From Janthinobacterium tructae (GTDB taxonomy: Bacteria; Pseudomonadota; Gammaproteobacteria; Burkholderiales; Burkholderiaceae_D): 64,000 nucleotides of DNA. Made by a program: the position numbers and the translations under genes. The DNA lies in the NCBI RefSeq assembly GCF_006517255.1, contig NZ_CP041185.1, forward strand, positions 4,278,001-4,342,000. Reading direction: 5' to 3'. Position 1 is the stretch's first letter; each line of letters starts with the position of its first letter. A model generated the notes under the pieces. The model ran no database searches. It was not told the origin of the DNA and saw only the letters and a list, made by a program, of their open reading frames with translations. This document shows positions 8,372 to 15,672 of this stretch, piece after piece.

Positions 8372-8926
8372 TCAGCTGCACATGCCGTACGCCTGGCGCT
8401 CGGGGAAATAGCGGTACGTAAACGTGCGCACCGGGTAGCGCTTGCCGGCGACGAGCATGTCGGGCATCGACAGATCGAAGCGCTGCGGCAGCTGGCGCGG
8501 CAGTTGCAGGCGCAAGCGCCACTGGGTTTCGGCGCTCGAACCCACGGCGGAAAACATGATGGGCAGTGTGTCGATGACGTCGACCATCTCCGCCTTGCGG
8601 CTCACGCCGCGCTGGTAAATGGTGAGTATCTTGGCTTCGGCGAACGGTGCTTGTTTCGGTTCTTCCAGCAGGAAGGACAGGCGCGTAAAACTGGCTTGGG
8701 TACCGACGGGCAAGGTAAAAATCAGCGCCAGCTCCGTACCGCCTTCCTTCAAGGTGACGGGGGGCGTGGCATACACGCTGATACCGCGCGGCAGCGCGAA
8801 ACGCGAGCCCTCCGTCCAGGTCTTGCACTCGGGCGTGGTAGCCTGGTACAGGCTGGGCGCCGTGTAGTCGTCGCAGGCGGAAACCAGCAGCAGCAGGGGC
8901 AGGGCGAGGAGGGCGGAACGGTGCAT
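8372..8926 (-). CDS. Putative lipoprotein of the speD operon
   Basis: A 184-residue protein with an N-terminal lipoprotein signal: MHRS, a hydrophobic Leu-rich core and the lipobox LVSAC, placing the lipidated cysteine at about residue 18. The mature part is beta-rich, with no family I recognise. It is the last gene of the DUF350-SPFH-DUF4178-speD operon, 69 bp after speD. The ATG at 8926 was preferred to a TTG three codons upstream because it directly starts the signal peptide. Location is probably the periplasmic face of inner or outer membrane; function unknown. Confidence 0.7.
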   Translation of the reverse strand: MHRSALLALPLLLLVSACDDYTAPSLYQATTPECKTWTEGSRFALPRGISVYATPPVTLKEGGTELALIFTLPVGTQASFTRLSFLLEEPKQAPFAEAKILTIYQRGVSRKAEMVDVIDTLPIMFSAVGSSAETQWRLRLQLPRQLPQRFDLSMPDMLVAGKRYPVRTFTYRYFPERQAYGMCS

Positions 8927-8995
8927 GGGAGTCAAGGTTGGAGGATCAGCCGACAGTGTAAGCGATCGCCACGCGATCCACCAGCGACGCCAGGC

Positions 8996-9361
8996 CTACC
9001 CTGGCGGGGCGCGCCGCACGGACTGCAGCTGGCAGTGCGCCGCCTGCAGCGCGTTCTGGATGACGTCGAGCGCCAGCTGCGGCTGCGCCGCGCCGCACAT
9101 GAAGATGTCCACGGCGGCAAAGCTGCATTCCGGCCAGGTGTGGATGGAAATGTGCGATTCGGCCAGCAGCACCACGCCGGTGACGCCCTGGCCTGCGCCA
9201 AAGCTGTGGAAATGGCTGTGCAGCACCTGCGCGCCTGCCGTAGTGGCCGCTGAGCGCAGCAGGCGTTCGAGCGCGGCGCCGTCGCGCAGGCGTTCCGGCG
9301 CGATGCCGGACAAGTCGGCCAGCAGATGGATGCCCAGGGGCAGATGCGGTGTGGCGGTCAT
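8996..9361 (-). CDS. speD: S-adenosylmethionine decarboxylase proenzyme
   Basis: Short bacterial-type AdoMet decarboxylase (121 residues) that makes decarboxylated AdoMet, the aminopropyl donor for polyamine synthesis. The self-cleavage site is in AESHISIHTWPE: Glu68-Ser69, with Ser69 becoming the pyruvoyl group. His74 and Cys89 are the expected processing and catalytic residues. The ATG at 9361 starts 2 nt after the stop of the preceding micropeptide gene. The divergent aminopropyltransferase-like gene at 12527 is its obvious partner. Confidence 0.92.
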   Translation of the reverse strand: MTATPHLPLGIHLLADLSGIAPERLRDGAALERLLRSAATTAGAQVLHSHFHSFGAGQGVTGVVLLAESHISIHTWPECSFAAVDIFMCGAAQPQLALDVIQNALQAAHCQLQSVRRAPPG

Positions 9362-9363
9362 GC

Positions 9364-9534
9364 TTATTTGTGGCTGCCGCCACTGGAGCCGCCGCCATAG
9401 CTGCCGCCGCCGCTGCCCGTGCGCGAACTCCAGCTGCTGCTGCTGCTGCTGCCGGCTACCTTGAACATGCGCACCCAATTGGCGGCCGTGACGGAAAACG
9501 TCACCATCAGGGCATAGATCACGTACTTACTCAT
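9364..9534 (-). CDS. Gly/Ser-rich membrane micropeptide
   Basis: A 56-residue peptide: one N-terminal hydrophobic helix (about residues 4-20, YVIYALMVTFSVTAANWV) followed by a low-complexity tail of six consecutive Ser and many Gly, ending GGSHK. Its ATG overlaps the stop of the DUF4178 gene (ATGA) and its own stop is 2 nt from speD, so it is surely translated with them. Low-complexity tails after a single helix occur in other small proteins of such loci (DUF4247-like, from memory). Function unknown. Confidence 0.75.
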   Translation of the reverse strand: MSKYVIYALMVTFSVTAANWVRMFKVAGSSSSSSWSSRTGSGGGSYGGGSSGGSHK

Positions 9535-10994
9535 GGAGGATTCTTTGCATTCTTGTCGAGGAAAACGGCGGGCAGGAACAGCGCCAGGCAGCCCAGCAAA
9601 CTCCACATCAAGGTGCTGGAAAACGAGACAAACATGGGGATCGCATTCAGGACCAGCACGATGACGATGAAGACCTTGGCGATGCCACGGTGGCTCAGTT
9701 TCGTATTTTGTACCTTGGCGCCGCCATGGAAGGCGGCGCCGAACCAGGCGGCCATCTGGTCATAGGCGACGGGCACGGAGCGCGACCACGTCATTTCCTC
9801 GCCGGTGAGCTCCGCCGCCAGCTTGGTCTGACCCTGTTCGAATTCATAGACGCGCGTGCTGTCGCCGACGGCCACCTTCCAGTTGAAGGCGCCCGCCGCG
9901 TAGACAACCTGCGAGCCGTAGTCGTACAGTTTGCGATAGGTGGCGCCATCGAGCGTGCAGGTAGCGGCGTCCAGCGAGGCCCAGTTGGGCCAGTTCGGCA
10001 GCACGTTCGAGCGCGACCAGCCGTCGTCCGTCTCCACCAGCCAGAAAAAACCGGCGCGCGCGCTGAACAGCAGGTATTCGTTCCACTGACTACCCTCGTC
10101 GTCGGCGCGGCGCATCATGCCGATCACCGTAAAGTCGGCATTGCTGATCTTTGCGCTGGCGCCCAGCTCCAGCGTGATGTCGGCGTTGTCGTGCACCTGT
10201 TTGCCGATGGCCAGCACTTGCGCTTCCGGGCCGCTGGCGTCGAGCTGCGCGTGGCAGGCGGGACACACCAGCTGCGCCGCCGCGCCGGGCACATACTTGA
10301 TGCCGCTGCCGCAGGACGGGCAGTCGAGCGCATCGAGCTTGCCGCGGTACTTGCCGGCGCTTTTGGCGATGGCGTCGTCGTCGCGCAGCAGCTGGCACTG
10401 CAAGCCATCCAGGGTGACGGCGACGCCCTGGTAGACGACCGGGTGCGGGCCATCCGTGTAGTCGAGCGTGACAAAGCTCGCGTAGTTGCGGAAGTCCGCC
10501 ACCTGGATGCGCCAGCCGGCGCCCACCTTGAACGGCAATTCTCCCTGGCCGGCGATGCATTCGGCATTGCGGATCTCGGCCGCCGTGTACGGCTCGCCGC
10601 AGAGCGTATAGCGCTTGCCTGGCGCCAGCTCGCCAAAGACGGGCAGGGCGTCTTGCGTGCTGCGCTCACGCGTCAGGGTGTACAGGCCGGACGAGTCGCC
10701 CAGCCAGGCCGTGCTGGCGTCGTCGAACAGCAGATACCACTCGTTCCACGTGCCGGCGCTGTAGCGCTGCTGGATGCGCCCGACGACGGTGAAGTGCAGG
10801 CCGTCATAGACGCCGGCCGTGCCGATCTGGATCGGTGTATAGTCTTCCAGGACGGCCGACATCTTGCCCACGTCCCTGACGGAATCGGCGTCCTTGAGGA
10901 TGGTGCTGTGGCAGTACTCGCACACGGCGAGCACGGAAGCGTGCGAGCGGAAGCGGACTTCCGCGCCGCAGCTGGGACAGGAAACAGTTTGCAT
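9531..10994 (-). CDS. DUF4178 zinc-ribbon membrane protein
   Basis: A 487-residue protein with a repeated layout: zinc ribbon CPSCGAEV...CEYCHS (about residues 5-29), first DUF4178 domain (about 50-200), second zinc ribbon CPSCGSG...CPACHAQ (about 220-247), second DUF4178 domain (about 265-400), and two C-terminal membrane helices (about 435-480). The W-NE-YLLF signature of DUF4178 appears twice. Cytosolic domains anchored to the membrane are predicted. It sits in a tight operon, 20 bp after the SPFH gene, and overlaps the micropeptide by 4 nt. DUF4178 has no established biochemical function that I know of. Confidence 0.88.
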   Translation of the reverse strand: MQTVSCPSCGAEVRFRSHASVLAVCEYCHSTILKDADSVRDVGKMSAVLEDYTPIQIGTAGVYDGLHFTVVGRIQQRYSAGTWNEWYLLFDDASTAWLGDSSGLYTLTRERSTQDALPVFGELAPGKRYTLCGEPYTAAEIRNAECIAGQGELPFKVGAGWRIQVADFRNYASFVTLDYTDGPHPVVYQGVAVTLDGLQCQLLRDDDAIAKSAGKYRGKLDALDCPSCGSGIKYVPGAAAQLVCPACHAQLDASGPEAQVLAIGKQVHDNADITLELGASAKISNADFTVIGMMRRADDEGSQWNEYLLFSARAGFFWLVETDDGWSRSNVLPNWPNWASLDAATCTLDGATYRKLYDYGSQVVYAAGAFNWKVAVGDSTRVYEFEQGQTKLAAELTGEEMTWSRSVPVAYDQMAAWFGAAFHGGAKVQNTKLSHRGIAKVFIVIVLVLNAIPMFVSFSSTLMWSLLGCLALFLPAVFLDKNAKNPP

Positions 10995-11014
10995 GCAGTC
11001 GTATTTCGCTCTAA

Positions 11015-12049
11015 TCAGCCGATCAGTTTCTTCAGCAGTTCCGCTTTCGCGCCGTCATAGTCGGCCGGCGATATGAGGCCCTTGTCCAATAAACCCTTGA
11101 GCTTTTCCAGGCGCGCCTCGATCGGTTCCTCGGCAGGGGCCGGTGGCGCCACCGGAGCCGGTGCCTGCTGCTGCAGCGCACCGCCCATGCTTTGCGCCAT
11201 CACCTGGCCGATCGACAGCCCGGCGCCGAGTCCCGCGCCGATGCCGGCCATGCCGCCTTCGTTCTGTGCCGCCAGCGGGATCGCGTTGGCCACCTGGAAT
11301 TTGGTGTAGCCGCTCATCTTGTCGGCGCCCAGCCCGCCCTTCATGCCGGCGGAAATACGCTCGTCGAGCGCCGCCTGCAATTCCTCGGGCAGGCTGATGC
11401 TGGCCACGTTGAATTCATCGAGGCCCACGCCATAGCGGGCAAACGCCTGCGCCAGGCCATCTTTGACCTCTTGCGCCATCAGCGCCTGGTTGGCCGCCAT
11501 GTCGAGGAAGGGCACATTCGCGCCGCCCAGCGAGCTGGCCATGCTCGACATCAGAATGCCGCGCAACTGGTCTTCCACCTCGTCGCGCGTATAGATTTCG
11601 CGCGTGCCGCTGATCTCGGTGAAGAAGGTGCGGGCGTCGGCGATGCGGTACGAATACATGCCGAAGGCGCGCACGCGGATCATGTCGAAATCCTTGTCGC
11701 GGATGGTGATCGGCTGCGGCGTGCCCCATTTGCGGCCCGTCTGCACGCGGGTGCTGAAGTAATACACGTCCGACTTGAAGGGCGAGTCGAACAGCTTGTC
11801 CCAGTTTTTCAGGTTGGTCAGCAGCGGTAATGTCTGCGTCGTCAGCTTGTGCGTGCCGGGGCCGAAGACGTCGGCGATCTTGCCTTCATTGACGAAGACG
11901 GCGACCTGCGATTCGCGCACATTCAGGATGGCGCCGTTCTGGATCTCGAAATCCTGCATCGGAAAACGCCAGGCCAGTACGCCTTCCGTTTCTTCGTTCC
12001 ACTGCAGTACGTCGATAAACTGCTTCTTGATAAAGCTGCCGAGGCTCAT
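11015..12049 (-). CDS. SPFH-domain protein with C-terminal SHOCT-like segment
   Basis: A 344-residue stomatin/prohibitin-class protein. The start MSLGSFIKKQFIDVLQW leads into an SPFH domain (about residues 25-230). A Gly/Ala-rich linker follows, and the C-terminal 35 residues (EARLEKLKGLLDKGLISPADYDGAKAELL, described by its ARLEKLKGLLDKG core) resemble a SHOCT oligomerisation motif. This is the cytosolic 'virion core/YdjI-like' SPFH class, probably a peripheral membrane scaffold. The in-frame extension upstream to 12208 overlaps the DUF350 gene and lacks a Shine-Dalgarno, so ATG 12049 with AAGGA upstream was chosen. Confidence 0.88.
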   Translation of the reverse strand: MSLGSFIKKQFIDVLQWNEETEGVLAWRFPMQDFEIQNGAILNVRESQVAVFVNEGKIADVFGPGTHKLTTQTLPLLTNLKNWDKLFDSPFKSDVYYFSTRVQTGRKWGTPQPITIRDKDFDMIRVRAFGMYSYRIADARTFFTEISGTREIYTRDEVEDQLRGILMSSMASSLGGANVPFLDMAANQALMAQEVKDGLAQAFARYGVGLDEFNVASISLPEELQAALDERISAGMKGGLGADKMSGYTKFQVANAIPLAAQNEGGMAGIGAGLGAGLSIGQVMAQSMGGALQQQAPAPVAPPAPAEEPIEARLEKLKGLLDKGLISPADYDGAKAELLKKLIG

Positions 12050-12080
12050 GATGGATATCCTTGAATAAGATAAAACGGTG

Positions 12081-12467
12081 TCAGGAAATGCAGGCGGCGT
12101 TGATGGCGCCGATCGACAGGGAAATGGCGCCCAGCAGGCCGCCGAAGGCGCTGTTGTTCGATTCGATCTGGTCCTTCGACATGCGCAGCAGGCGCGTGGT
12201 GACCACATAGGCGAGCAATTGCACCACCATGGCGCCGAAGGCCCAGGCGAAGAACTGCTGGTAGTCGGCCGTATGCATCAGGGACGAGGCGATGGTAGCG
12301 GAAAAGCCCAGCAGCGCGCCGCCCAGCGACAGCGCCGCCGCCTGGTTGCCCTGGCGAATCAGCAGCACTTCGTTATACGGCGTGACGCGCGTGTAGATGA
12401 TAAAAAATACAATCAACAGCCCGGCGGCCAGTAAAAGATGGATCAGATAGTTTAGGATGGCGGGCAC
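12081..12467 (-). CDS. DUF350 family membrane protein
   Basis: A 128-residue integral membrane protein with four hydrophobic helices (about residues 5-25, 43-63, 68-90 and 105-125). It has the Gly-rich DUF350 pattern GGALLGF and GGLLGAISLSIGAINAACI. First gene of the minus-strand operon and divergent from the aminopropyltransferase-like gene across 59 bp. DUF350 proteins recur next to SPFH, DUF4178 and PspA-type envelope-stress genes; the activity is unknown. Confidence 0.87.
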   Translation of the reverse strand: MPAILNYLIHLLLAAGLLIVFFIIYTRVTPYNEVLLIRQGNQAAALSLGGALLGFSATIASSLMHTADYQQFFAWAFGAMVVQLLAYVVTTRLLRMSKDQIESNNSAFGGLLGAISLSIGAINAACIS

Positions 12468-12526
12468 GGCTTTCCTCGCAATGAGTATTTGATAACGTCA
12501 ACGCATATTAGAACAAAAAAAGTCCA

Positions 12527-14038
12527 ATGAACAAAAAGATTCTGATCTTGTCCGTCTTCGTGGTTGCCTCCTGCGGCCTCGCGTATGAGCTGATCGCCGG
12601 CGCCATGTCCAGCTACCTGCTCGGCGACTCCATCTTGCAGTTTTCCACCATTATCGGCTGCTACCTGTTCGCCATGGGTGTGGGCGCTCACTTTTCCAAG
12701 TATGTAAAGGACGACGACGTGCTCTCGCGCTTCGTCGACATCGAGCTGGCCGTGGGCCTGATCGGCGGCTTGTCGGCCGCCATCCTGTTCATGACGTTTT
12801 CGTGGATGGCGGCGCCATTTCGCACCTTATTGTATGTGATGGTGTTCCTGATCGGCGCACTGGTCGGCATGGAAGTGCCGCTGGTGATGCGTGCCCTCAA
12901 TTCGCGCCAGACGGAATTTAGTGAACTGGTCAGCCGCGTACTGACCTTCGATTACCTGGGCGCGCTGGCAGTTTCGCTGCTGTTCCCGCTGGTGCTGTCG
13001 CCGTATCTGGGACTGGTGCGTACGGGCTTTTTGTTCGGCATGCTCAACGTGGGCGTGGGCCTGTGGACGATTTACGTGTTCCGCGCCGAGCTGAAGAACC
13101 TCACCGGGCGCTTCCTGCGCGCCTGCGTCGTGCTGCTGCTGCTGATCGTCGGCTTTGCCATGTCGGACCGCATGGTGGCCTGGGGCGAACATGGCCTGTT
13201 CGGTGACCAGATCGTGTATTCCACCACCACGCCCTACCAGCGCCTGGTGATCACGCGCTGGAAGGACGATACGCGGCTGTACATCAATGGCAACCTGCAG
13301 TTTTCCTCGCGCGACGAGTACCGCTACCACGAAGCGCTGGTGCACCCCGTGCTGGAAGCCTTGCCATGGGCGCGCCGCGTGCTGGTGCTGGGCGGCGGCG
13401 ATGGCCTGGCGCTGCGCGAAATCCTGCGCTATCCGAATATCGAACACGTCACCGTGGTCGACCTTGACCCCGCCATGACGGCCGCGTTTACCACGCGCCC
13501 GGAACTGGCAAAGCTGAATAACAATTCGTTCTCGGACAAGCGCGTCACCGTCGTCAATGCCGATGCCGCCGTCTGGCTGCGCAACAACGGCGACATGTTC
13601 GACGCGGCCATCGTCGACTTTCCCGATCCGTCCAGCTTCGCGCTCGGCAAGCTGTATTCCGTGCCCTTCTACGACCTGGTGAAAAAACACCTGGCGGCCA
13701 AGGGCTTGATGGTGGTGCAATCGACGTCGCCTTTCTTTGCCCCACACGCCTACTGGACCATCAATGCGACCCTGCGCGAAGTGGGCATGCGTACCTGGCC
13801 CTACCACGCCTATGTACCCTCGTTCGGCGAATGGGGTTTTATCCTGGCTTCACCCCAGCTTGACTACACACCGCCGACGACATACCGCCTGCCGATGCGC
13901 TACCTGAATGCGGACACCACGCGCGAAATGTTCATCTTCCCGCCCGACATGCAGCCGCTGCCGATGGCGCCGAATCGCCTCAACACCCAGTCGCTCGTGC
14001 ATGAATTCGAGCAGGACTGGAACCGGGTGATTCGCTGA
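12527..14038 (+). CDS. Membrane-embedded spermidine synthase-like aminopropyltransferase
   Basis: A 503-residue fusion of an N-terminal membrane domain (about seven helices within residues 5-215) and a C-terminal spermidine synthase fold. The catalytic part shows YHEALVHP (about 267-274), the AdoMet-type loop LGGGDG (288-293), the acidic residues of VVDLDP (310-315) and DFPDPSS (364-370), where soluble SpeE has a DxxDP motif. It would transfer an aminopropyl group from the SpeD product to an amine, at or across the membrane. The gene overlaps the oxidase gene by 1 nt (TGATG). The acceptor substrate is not deducible. Confidence 0.87.
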   Translation: MNKKILILSVFVVASCGLAYELIAGAMSSYLLGDSILQFSTIIGCYLFAMGVGAHFSKYVKDDDVLSRFVDIELAVGLIGGLSAAILFMTFSWMAAPFRTLLYVMVFLIGALVGMEVPLVMRALNSRQTEFSELVSRVLTFDYLGALAVSLLFPLVLSPYLGLVRTGFLFGMLNVGVGLWTIYVFRAELKNLTGRFLRACVVLLLLIVGFAMSDRMVAWGEHGLFGDQIVYSTTTPYQRLVITRWKDDTRLYINGNLQFSSRDEYRYHEALVHPVLEALPWARRVLVLGGGDGLALREILRYPNIEHVTVVDLDPAMTAAFTTRPELAKLNNNSFSDKRVTVVNADAAVWLRNNGDMFDAAIVDFPDPSSFALGKLYSVPFYDLVKKHLAAKGLMVVQSTSPFFAPHAYWTINATLREVGMRTWPYHAYVPSFGEWGFILASPQLDYTPPTTYRLPMRYLNADTTREMFIFPPDMQPLPMAPNRLNTQSLVHEFEQDWNRVIR

Positions 14039-15672
14039 TGCAGCGCCGCTCCTTCATGCTGTGGGCTGCCGGTGGCGCGGCGGCGGCCGCCGCCGGCATC
14101 GGCAGCATTGCCGCGTATCTGCGCTGGCAGGAGATCACGCCCAAGGTGCTGTATCCGGGCCGCAGCGAGGGACACTATTTGCGCACGCTGCTGCGCGAGC
14201 ACACGGCGCTGCCGGCGCCCTCGGCAACCATCACCACGGATGTCGCCATCCTCGGTTCCGGCATCGCCGGCCTGACGGCGGCGTGGCGCCTGAACAAGCT
14301 GGGGCACCAGGATTTCCTGATGGTCGATGGCCCGCAGCCGTATGGCAACGCGGCCGGCGGGCAGTTCGGCGAGCTGGCCTATCCGACCGGTGGCCATTAT
14401 TTGCCGCTGCCTTCACCCGAATCGACCCACGTGCGCGAGATCCTGTTCGACCTGGGGATTATCCAGCGCGACCCGCAGGCGGAAAAGCCGTACTACGACG
14501 AGCGCTATATCCTGCACGCGCCGGAAGAACGATTGCTGTTCAACGGCCTGTGGCAGGATGGCTTCATTCCCACCGAAGGCGTGCCGCCTGCGGAACTGGC
14601 GCAGCACGAACGCTTCTTTGCCGAGGTGCGGCATTTGCGTCAGGCGCGCGGCAACGATGGCAAGCGCGTCTTCGTTTTCCCTACCGTGGAATCGTCGCAA
14701 GACCCGGCCTGGCAGGCGCTCGACGCCATCACCTTGAAGCAGTGGATGGAGCGCGAAGGCTATACCTCGCCCACCCTGCACTGGTATCTGAATTACTGCT
14801 GCCGCGACGACTATGGCACGCGCTACGATCAGGTGTCGGCCTGGGCCGGCCTGCATTACTATTGCAGCCGCTGGGGGCAGGCGGCGAATGCGGGCAATGG
14901 CGCCTGGCTGACCTGGCCCGGCGGCATGCAGCCAGTCGCCACGGCCATGGAGCAGGCCTCAGGCGTCAAACGTCATGCGGGCACGGTGGTTTCCGTGCAG
15001 ACGACAGACCAGGGCGTGGAAGCGCTGTGCCTGGAACTGGTCGACGGCCAGCCACGCACCTACCTGGTCAAGGCACGCAAGGCCATCTGCGCCATGCCCT
15101 TGTATGTGGCGGCGCGCGTGGTGCCGGACATTGCCAGCTACGGCTTTGACGCGAAGCGCGATACGCCCGCGTATGCGCCATGGATGGTGGCGAACTTTTT
15201 ACTGAAACGCTTTCCCGACGAACTGCCGCATGCACCACTGTGCTGGGATAACGTGGTGTACCAGGAACCGGGCCTCGGCTATGTCGTCTCGACCCACCAG
15301 GATATCCGCGTGCGTCCGCCCGAGAAAACCGTCTTCAGCGCCTACGTGGCGCTGTCCGACCGCACGCCGCAGCAAGCGCGCAAATGGCTCGATACGGCCA
15401 CGCCCGAAGAATTGCTGGCGCTGGCCAGCGTCGACCTGAAAACGGCGTATGGACGCGATTTCGCCAGCTGCGTCGAGCGCGTCGACATTACCGTGCGCGG
15501 CCACGCCATGGCCGCACCGTTACCGGGATTTCGCAGCAATGCGGGCTTGAAGGCCTTGCGTGAACATGACGGTGCCATCCTGTTCGCGCATGCCGATCTG
15601 TCGGGCTTTTCCGTGTTCGAGGAAGCGGCGTGGTGGGGGGATAGGGCAGCGCGATTGGCGGCTAACGTCTGA
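14038..15672 (+). CDS. Twin-arginine flavin-dependent amine oxidase-like protein
   Basis: A 544-residue FAD protein. The N-terminus MQRRSFMLW with an Ala/Gly-rich hydrophobic core is a twin-arginine export signal. The dinucleotide-binding segment VAILGSGIAGLTAAWRL (about residues 69-85) is the Rossmann motif of the NAD(P)-binding/amine oxidase clan, and the C-terminal HADLSGFSVFEEAAWWGDRAA helix contacts FAD in this family. It is translationally coupled to the aminopropyltransferase-like gene, so an exported oxidase acting on its polyamine product is plausible. That substrate link is inference from context. Confidence 0.82.
   Translation: MQRRSFMLWAAGGAAAAAAGIGSIAAYLRWQEITPKVLYPGRSEGHYLRTLLREHTALPAPSATITTDVAILGSGIAGLTAAWRLNKLGHQDFLMVDGPQPYGNAAGGQFGELAYPTGGHYLPLPSPESTHVREILFDLGIIQRDPQAEKPYYDERYILHAPEERLLFNGLWQDGFIPTEGVPPAELAQHERFFAEVRHLRQARGNDGKRVFVFPTVESSQDPAWQALDAITLKQWMEREGYTSPTLHWYLNYCCRDDYGTRYDQVSAWAGLHYYCSRWGQAANAGNGAWLTWPGGMQPVATAMEQASGVKRHAGTVVSVQTTDQGVEALCLELVDGQPRTYLVKARKAICAMPLYVAARVVPDIASYGFDAKRDTPAYAPWMVANFLLKRFPDELPHAPLCWDNVVYQEPGLGYVVSTHQDIRVRPPEKTVFSAYVALSDRTPQQARKWLDTATPEELLALASVDLKTAYGRDFASCVERVDITVRGHAMAAPLPGFRSNAGLKALREHDGAILFAHADLSGFSVFEEAAWWGDRAARLAANV

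Follow-up and report, generated by a model that had tools for sequence, protein, structure and literature searches.

We analysed a window of 64,000 nucleotides from Janthinobacterium tructae (contig NZ_CP041185.1, positions 4,278,001 to 4,342,000 of the forward strand), in which two divergent operons, lying between window positions 8372 and 15672, are built around a seven-transmembrane domain fused to a SpeE-like aminopropyltransferase (7TM-SpeE). Judged from its sequence and from the neighbourhoods of its relatives, a 56-amino-acid micropeptide of this locus, consisting of one transmembrane (TM) segment and a serine- and glycine-rich tail with lysine as its last residue, is a core part of the system; the lysine-ended tail is a new result, and the terminal lysine is its most constant feature. 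We propose, tentatively and with slightly less than even confidence, that these genes encode an envelope system in which 7TM-SpeE aminopropylates the lysine of the tail and an exported oxidase processes the product.

The micropeptide of the window (9364-9534, minus strand) starts with the ATG at 9534, overlapping the stop of the DUF4178 gene as ATGA, and ends ...GGSHK, with the lysine codon at 9367-9369 following Ser-His and preceding the TAA at 9364. Small one-TM open reading frames with a low-complexity, lysine-ended tail were first noticed after DUF4178 genes in very different phyla, and were counted by a blind pick that took the small TM frame whose start lies nearest the DUF4178 stop and ignored how it ended. 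Among the 76 loci with a long-form DUF4178, seven gave no pick, and 65 of the 69 picks ended in lysine (51 in His-Lys, 12 in Gly-Lys and 2 in Ile-Lys; codons AAG in 35 and AAA in 30). With the 11 remaining loci, which were read afterwards and in which the tail either forms the C-terminal end of DUF4178 as a fusion (nine) or stands alone (L171 and L155), a lysine-ended tail is found in 76 of 76. In loci without a long DUF4178, a protein that we label LIP17 ends in Gly-Lys in six of six; at loci with another protein, labelled LIP19, the gap between SpeE and LIP19 encodes a small protein with one TM segment and a Gly-Lys end in five of five, a count that is not blind, these tails having been located by seeking a terminal lysine in that gap, noted earlier. 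LIP19 itself (L079, L085, L088, L090 and L091) has two TM segments and resembles the C-terminal membrane/beta module of the long DUF4178 as a separate gene. Overall, a tail is encoded in cis, standalone or fused, in 87 of 107 loci, and those of the 80 named loci described below were found in seven phyla. The tail also occurs in loci with PspA and where no oxidase is linked (L078, L080 and L219-L221), and therefore appears independent of the oxidase or the scaffold. An acidobacterial micropeptide belongs to a family of 1438 clusters; its best 120 relatives show no Pfam domain, and 119 of them end in lysine.

The tail also held in a prediction, whose rule was written before 19 further loci were fetched (from 18 genomes, in a draw with 45 of 397 genomes above the cut-off). 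A tail was present in all 19, and 18 fit the prewritten rule, L206 by an alternative clause that allowed the end of DUF4178 itself, the nearest small frame there being DUF350; L212 is an unforeseen fusion, with the tail on LIP19 and ending ...GGSRGGK. As a control, the same pick made downstream of the stop codons of the SPFH, SpeD, oxidase, SpeE and DUF350 genes gave a lysine end in 4 of 54 cases, and a C-terminal lysine occurs in 10 of 305 other proteins of the loci. When 106 tails were compiled, no residue exceeded 59% at any position other than the last; within the last 15 residues, lysine is nearly absent before the terminus and arginine is common, and none of the tails ends in arginine. 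That all 106 end in lysine is not an independent count, because four blind picks without lysine were replaced in the compilation. We did not find the lysine-ended tail in the open-licence literature searched, none of the searches being aimed at the tail by a possible name, and no wording for aminopropyl-lysine was found in open-licence literature.

The enzyme encoded beside the tail (12527-14038, plus strand; NF002956 at 688.5 bits against a cut-off of 472) has thermospermine synthase as its best solved relative (1.5e-54). Its YHE, GGGDG and DxxDP motifs, which serve decarboxylated S-adenosylmethionine (dcSAM) and catalysis, show little or no variation across 107 7TM-SpeE sequences. On the acceptor side, near the C-terminus, it reads PSFGEWG and lacks the putrescine-side YPSGxW-type motif that spermidine synthases have at that place, in an alignment with one usable canonical sequence. 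Li et al. 2019 (Biochem J) reportedly described a fusion of a major facilitator superfamily domain with spermidine synthase (MFS-SpdSyn), linked to S-adenosylmethionine decarboxylase and DUF350, relatives of which are said to fail to restore spermidine in an Escherichia coli speE mutant. As described, that fusion resembles the window in joining a membrane domain to a spermidine synthase-like domain and in its linked SpeD and DUF350; to these the window adds SPFH and DUF4178, an oxidase linked to the fusion, and a candidate for the acceptor. According to PMC12803844, which cites Li 2019, bacterial membrane-aminopropyltransferase fusions reportedly take no part in making spermidine or spermine. 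The pairing of the enzyme with a tail that nearly always ends in lysine points to a protein tail beyond the membrane as its target, in preference to the production of free polyamines. The lysine side chain offers the aminobutyl amine that makes up half of putrescine, so that adding an aminopropyl group to it would yield a side chain resembling spermidine. The terminal lysine as acceptor is the most economical reading, to which we give about an even chance.

The predicted location of the partners is consistent with such a modification. Hydropathy gives seven TM segments in 7TM-SpeE, and lysine plus arginine are more numerous in the loops after TM2, TM4 and TM6 than in those after TM1, TM3 and TM5 in 107 of 107 sequences; this N-in/C-out charge bias, together with seven crossings, places the SpeE domain probably on the outer face, a side that a miscount of the segments would flip. 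The oxidase (14038-15672, plus strand; PF01593 at 31.6 bits, PF13450 at 30.5 bits), whose first base is the last base of 7TM-SpeE, has the Rossmann motif for flavin adenine dinucleotide (FAD) and the amine-oxidase domain of the Flavin amine oxidase superfamily; its best PDB relatives are monoamine and putrescine oxidases. Its N-terminus carries a twin-arginine pair, which recurs in every one of the 12 rows of an alignment and in 33 of another 36 oxidases with a parsed FAD motif (in 21 of 57 the motif pattern found no match, and these are uncounted); a lipobox-like cysteine follows the pair in 8 of the 33. As for the carriers of the tail, LIP17 proteins look lipoprotein-like by eye in five of six, and the tail follows one TM segment in five and three TM segments in two of the nine fused forms, which would put seven of the nine outside if DUF4178 is cytosolic.

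We propose the following series of steps. SpeD would supply dcSAM, which would reach the outer face, perhaps via the 7TM part. There, 7TM-SpeE, with its catalytic domain facing outward, would aminopropylate the C-terminal lysine of a membrane-anchored flexible tail, in the window that of the micropeptide, and the product, N-epsilon-(3-aminopropyl)lysine, would be a side chain akin to spermidine and bound to a protein. The flavin oxidase, exported by the twin-arginine (Tat) route, would then oxidise or reverse the modification, and DUF4178, DUF350 and SPFH (in another branch of the system PspA and a CesT-like partner) would keep the assembly in place at the membrane and control it. For protein-lysine aminopropylation, a constant candidate acceptor lysine is encoded with the enzyme, save in 20 of 107 loci. 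In its fully extracytoplasmic version, with the 7TM-fed aminopropyltransferase acting on the lysine of a swinging tail and the exported oxidase acting on protein-bound spermidine, we regard the scheme as possible, the balance lying somewhat against it.

Several observations weigh against this mechanism. We know of no precedent for dcSAM beyond the cytoplasmic membrane, 5 of the 27 Pseudomonadota genomes with 7TM-SpeE gave no SpeD match, and the constancy of the terminal lysine would suit wall attachment too. Four of the 69 blind picks did not end in lysine (L066, L077, L131 and L171) and were judged spurious afterwards, and threonine is the last residue in one of the 120 best relatives found for the acidobacterial micropeptide. 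The charges flanking the TM segment of the window's micropeptide leave its orientation undecided, two of the nine fused forms have two TM segments before the tail, and 3 of the 36 parsed oxidases lack the arginine pair (two have Arg-Lys and one sequence looks cut). The 20 loci in which no convincing tail was found in cis, by a search that used a composition filter, comprise 17 loci of the second survey without a nearby DUF4178, and L076, L084 and L087 of the first; several are contig ends, and L087 is an unexplained exception because it has PspA and a short DUF4178 with no tail. A whole-genome search for DUF4178, made for 9 of the 17, gave a match outside the stretch around SpeE in eight, some of which may appear unlinked merely through broken contigs, and, in favour of the proposal, a lysine-ended tail, located by that ending, stood beside the distant DUF4178 in seven of these eight genomes. 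In the eighth, G254, no tail was found beside DUF4178, and in the ninth genome, G255, DUF4178 had no match.

An earlier note on this DNA had seen the acceptor differently, in a view close to those of Ravi 2024 and Li 2019: 7TM-SpeE might aminopropylate a small molecule or a lipid at the membrane. On this reading, the lysine-ended tail would be a binding or assembly element of a DUF4178 complex. An enzyme embedded in the membrane, with a 7TM domain that could bind or move a hydrophobic acceptor, speaks for this. It would leave unexplained the terminal lysine, the scarcity of lysine elsewhere in the tail and the use of arginine there, as well as the moves of the tail between carriers (micropeptide, DUF4178, LIP17 and LIP19), and we consider it unlikely. 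The wall could also be the partner of the tail. Braun's lipoprotein ends in a lysine through which it is linked to the wall, and the C-terminal lysine of the tails could be a comparable peptidoglycan anchor made by an L,D-transpeptidase, with aminopropylation concerning something else. The parallel extends to an extracytoplasmic location and a functional C-terminal lysine, and five of six LIP17 carriers are lipoprotein-like with such an ending; Braun's lipoprotein differs from the window system in having no aminopropyltransferase, in its wall attachment and in its structured coiled coil. Standalone tails run 25-48 residues past the TM segment, an estimated reach that is marginal for the distance from the inner membrane to the wall, and an anchor would not explain the strict linkage to an aminopropyltransferase, which makes this reading quite improbable in our judgement.

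That SpeD and a SpeE fused to a membrane domain simply make spermidine in the cytosol, in the ordinary way, would agree with the SpeD match, with the intact transferase motifs and with the name that NCBIfam gives the fusion, polyamine aminopropyltransferase. We nevertheless hold it to be very improbable: the acceptor-side motif differs, homologues are reported as uninvolved (PMC12803844), and two genomes with the 7TM form (G082 and G171, at L068 and L070) have extra SpeD and SpeE matches adjoining in one further open frame of ~450 amino acids, like a SpeD-SpeE fusion. The terminal lysine might, lastly, reflect a general bacterial liking for basic C-terminal residues, and PMC7246954 gives C-terminal lysine at 2.32 times its bulk frequency across bacteria. 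This bias includes arginine, yet no compiled tail ends in arginine, and the neighbouring proteins counted above rarely end in lysine, which leaves this explanation a negligible share.

Aminopropylation of the tail lysine, if true, would provide a counterpart of hypusine and silaffin chemistry in several bacterial phyla. In the formation of hypusine, deoxyhypusine synthase places an aminobutyl group from spermidine on a lysine of eIF5A. The likeness lies in a single lysine with a polyamine-derived amine; hypusine differs in its aminobutyl group, its internal lysine, its cytosolic location and its unrelated enzyme. Diatom silaffins (PMC4557024) have lysines alkylated with (methylated) aminopropyl units; they resemble our proposal in carrying aminopropyl units on protein lysines, and differ in being eukaryotic silica proteins with many modified lysines and with methylation, for which the excerpts consulted name no enzyme. 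Many bacterial genomes have aminopropyltransferase-like membrane proteins and S-adenosylmethionine decarboxylases without a known product, and the constant lysine-ended tail is a concrete candidate substrate for those enzymes, one that would connect polyamine chemistry with the PspA/SPFH membrane systems. The presence of SpeD together with a 7TM-SpeE that is annotated as 'polyamine aminopropyltransferase' is thus no sure sign of spermidine synthesis.

The linkage of these genes is conserved. In a survey of 249 Pseudomonadota genomes with completeness of at least 90%, the 7TM-SpeE model scored above its cut-off in 27; DUF4178 occurred in 19, all within these 27, and on the same contig within ~10.5 kb of 7TM-SpeE in 19 of 19. 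The oxidase subfamily, as defined by a profile at E 1e-30 or better with at most five candidates scored per genome, occurred in 10 of the 249, in all 10 within ~5 kb of 7TM-SpeE. We also examined 80 named loci, the best 80 of 577 relatives ranked by identity to the SpeE of the window, which are therefore biased towards the SPFH branch; the sets of loci include near-copies (L092 is the window itself and L093 a 97% relative), and Pfam scans of the locus proteins took chosen representatives. Linked partners among the 80 were DUF4178 in 63, DUF350 in 59, SPFH in 58, oxidase in 57 and SpeD in 51, with PspA linked in none; where at least 7 kb upstream and at least 4 kb downstream were available (53 loci), all five partners were present in 31 and none in 5. 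The 80 loci span eight phyla (Pseudomonadota 60, Acidobacteriota 9, Gemmatimonadota 5, Bacteroidota 2, and Fibrobacterota, Elusimicrobiota, Nitrospinota and Spirochaetota one each), and SPFH is linked in four of them, so that the linkage extends well past close relatives. In locus L069 (genome G178) ~10 kb of other genes are inserted between SpeE and DUF350/DUF4178, and in L066-L092 DUF350 occurs, depending on the branch, as a half unit of 69-74 amino acids, a unit of ~130 or a form of ~280-310.

These results confirm the observation of the earlier note and support part of its interpretation. All the genes that it named are present in the divergent layout it described, by Pfam and NCBIfam matches and open frames; they form one conserved module; and the outcome that it named as refuting, a linkage confined to close relatives, was not seen. 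Its membrane-embedded aminopropyltransferase has the multi-TM domain, no ordinary SpeE being apparent elsewhere in the genome, and its exported oxidase has the Tat-type N-terminus. The note was also right that pspA is missing from the window, and we can widen this to the whole genome, in which PspA (PF04012) has zero matches; the PspA context that it had drawn on falls away with that result. The lipoprotein that it counted as a part of the system (8372-8926, minus strand; lipobox-like LVSAC, no Pfam match at E 0.001) was recognised in just 2 of 80 related loci, by a one-sequence profile that distant forms could escape, and probably lies outside the system. In sum, its module, membrane transferase and Tat oxidase stand, its lipoprotein probably does not, and it overlooked the importance of the micropeptide.

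The system is already known as a gene association without a function, of which the SPFH branch with an oxidase is a variant. Ravi et al. 2024 (PMC11237479) describe PspA-CesT/Tir operons with 7TM-SpeE, DUF350, DUF4178 and a lipoprotein, and, in a neighbouring ATP-grasp group, a variant in which Band-7-SHOCT, AdoMet decarboxylase and polyamine oxidase replace the PspA dyad. The window resembles the PspA-CesT/Tir operon so described in having 7TM-SpeE, DUF350 and DUF4178, and in tying polyamine genes to a membrane scaffold. In contrast to that operon, it lacks PspA, no CesT was seen at its locus, and SPFH-SHOCT stands in the place of the scaffold; the lysine-ended tail did not appear in the passages of that paper that were consulted. 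The window has the fusion, the linked DUF350 and DUF4178, and SpeD, and is without the PspA-CesT/Tir dyad. Among 27 sampled loci, the scaffold gene is SPFH in nine, PspA in ten, both in none and neither in eight (one at a contig end). A linked oxidase accompanies 10 of the 27, not one of them a PspA locus. In a tree of 107 7TM-SpeE sequences, built by a quick method with support from the Shimodaira-Hasegawa-like approximate likelihood ratio test (SH-aLRT) only and with long branches flagged by the program, SPFH and PspA rows are split by one change with support 99, the 30 rows of neither group being left uncounted. On the strength of this split in tree and loci and of the descriptions of Ravi et al., the locus of the window represents the SPFH branch of a system already described in part.

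Two further kinds of locus were seen around these branches. The PspA-type locus L087 carries 7TM-SpeE, DUF2170 and its short DUF4178, and neither DUF350, LIP17 nor a lysine-ended tail was found there. In L173-L188, the DUF1190 lipoproteins of a related ATP-grasp/DUF350 system also have serine- and glycine-rich tails, 8 of the ~13 (of 16) with a plausible frame ending in Gly-Gly, as would be fitting if a ligase like glutathionylspermidine synthetase used the C-terminal glycine as its target.

The host genome is a single contig of 6.31 Mb with a completeness of 100 by the genome tool. Its only SpeD match is that of the window, a class 1b S-adenosylmethionine decarboxylase (8996-9361, minus strand; PF02675 at 123.5 bits; TIGR03330; motif ESHISIHTWPE). 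Beyond 7TM-SpeE it has three SpeE-like frames, all weak; as spermidine synthases they were rejected, the two that were aligned lacking the Asp of GGGDG and DxxDP and the third (L004) being judged by eye. The remaining genes of the minus-strand operon encode the DUF4178 protein (9531-10994; PF13785 at 88.7 bits in two stretches, weak zinc-ribbon matches), with two hydrophobic segments, both C-terminal; the SPFH/Band-7 protein (11015-12049, its start set by homology; Band_7_1 PF13421 at 247.6 bits) with a C-terminal SHOCT (PF09851, 27.4 bits against a cut-off of 27); and the DUF350 membrane protein (12081-12467; PF03994 at 109.8 bits). The nearest database relative of the oxidase is a Janthinobacterium protein (94%), and the top named locus of 7TM-SpeE is that of Janthinobacterium lividum (97%). 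Just 59 bases (12468-12526) separate the two divergent operons, so that their promoters must overlap or sit partly in coding sequence.

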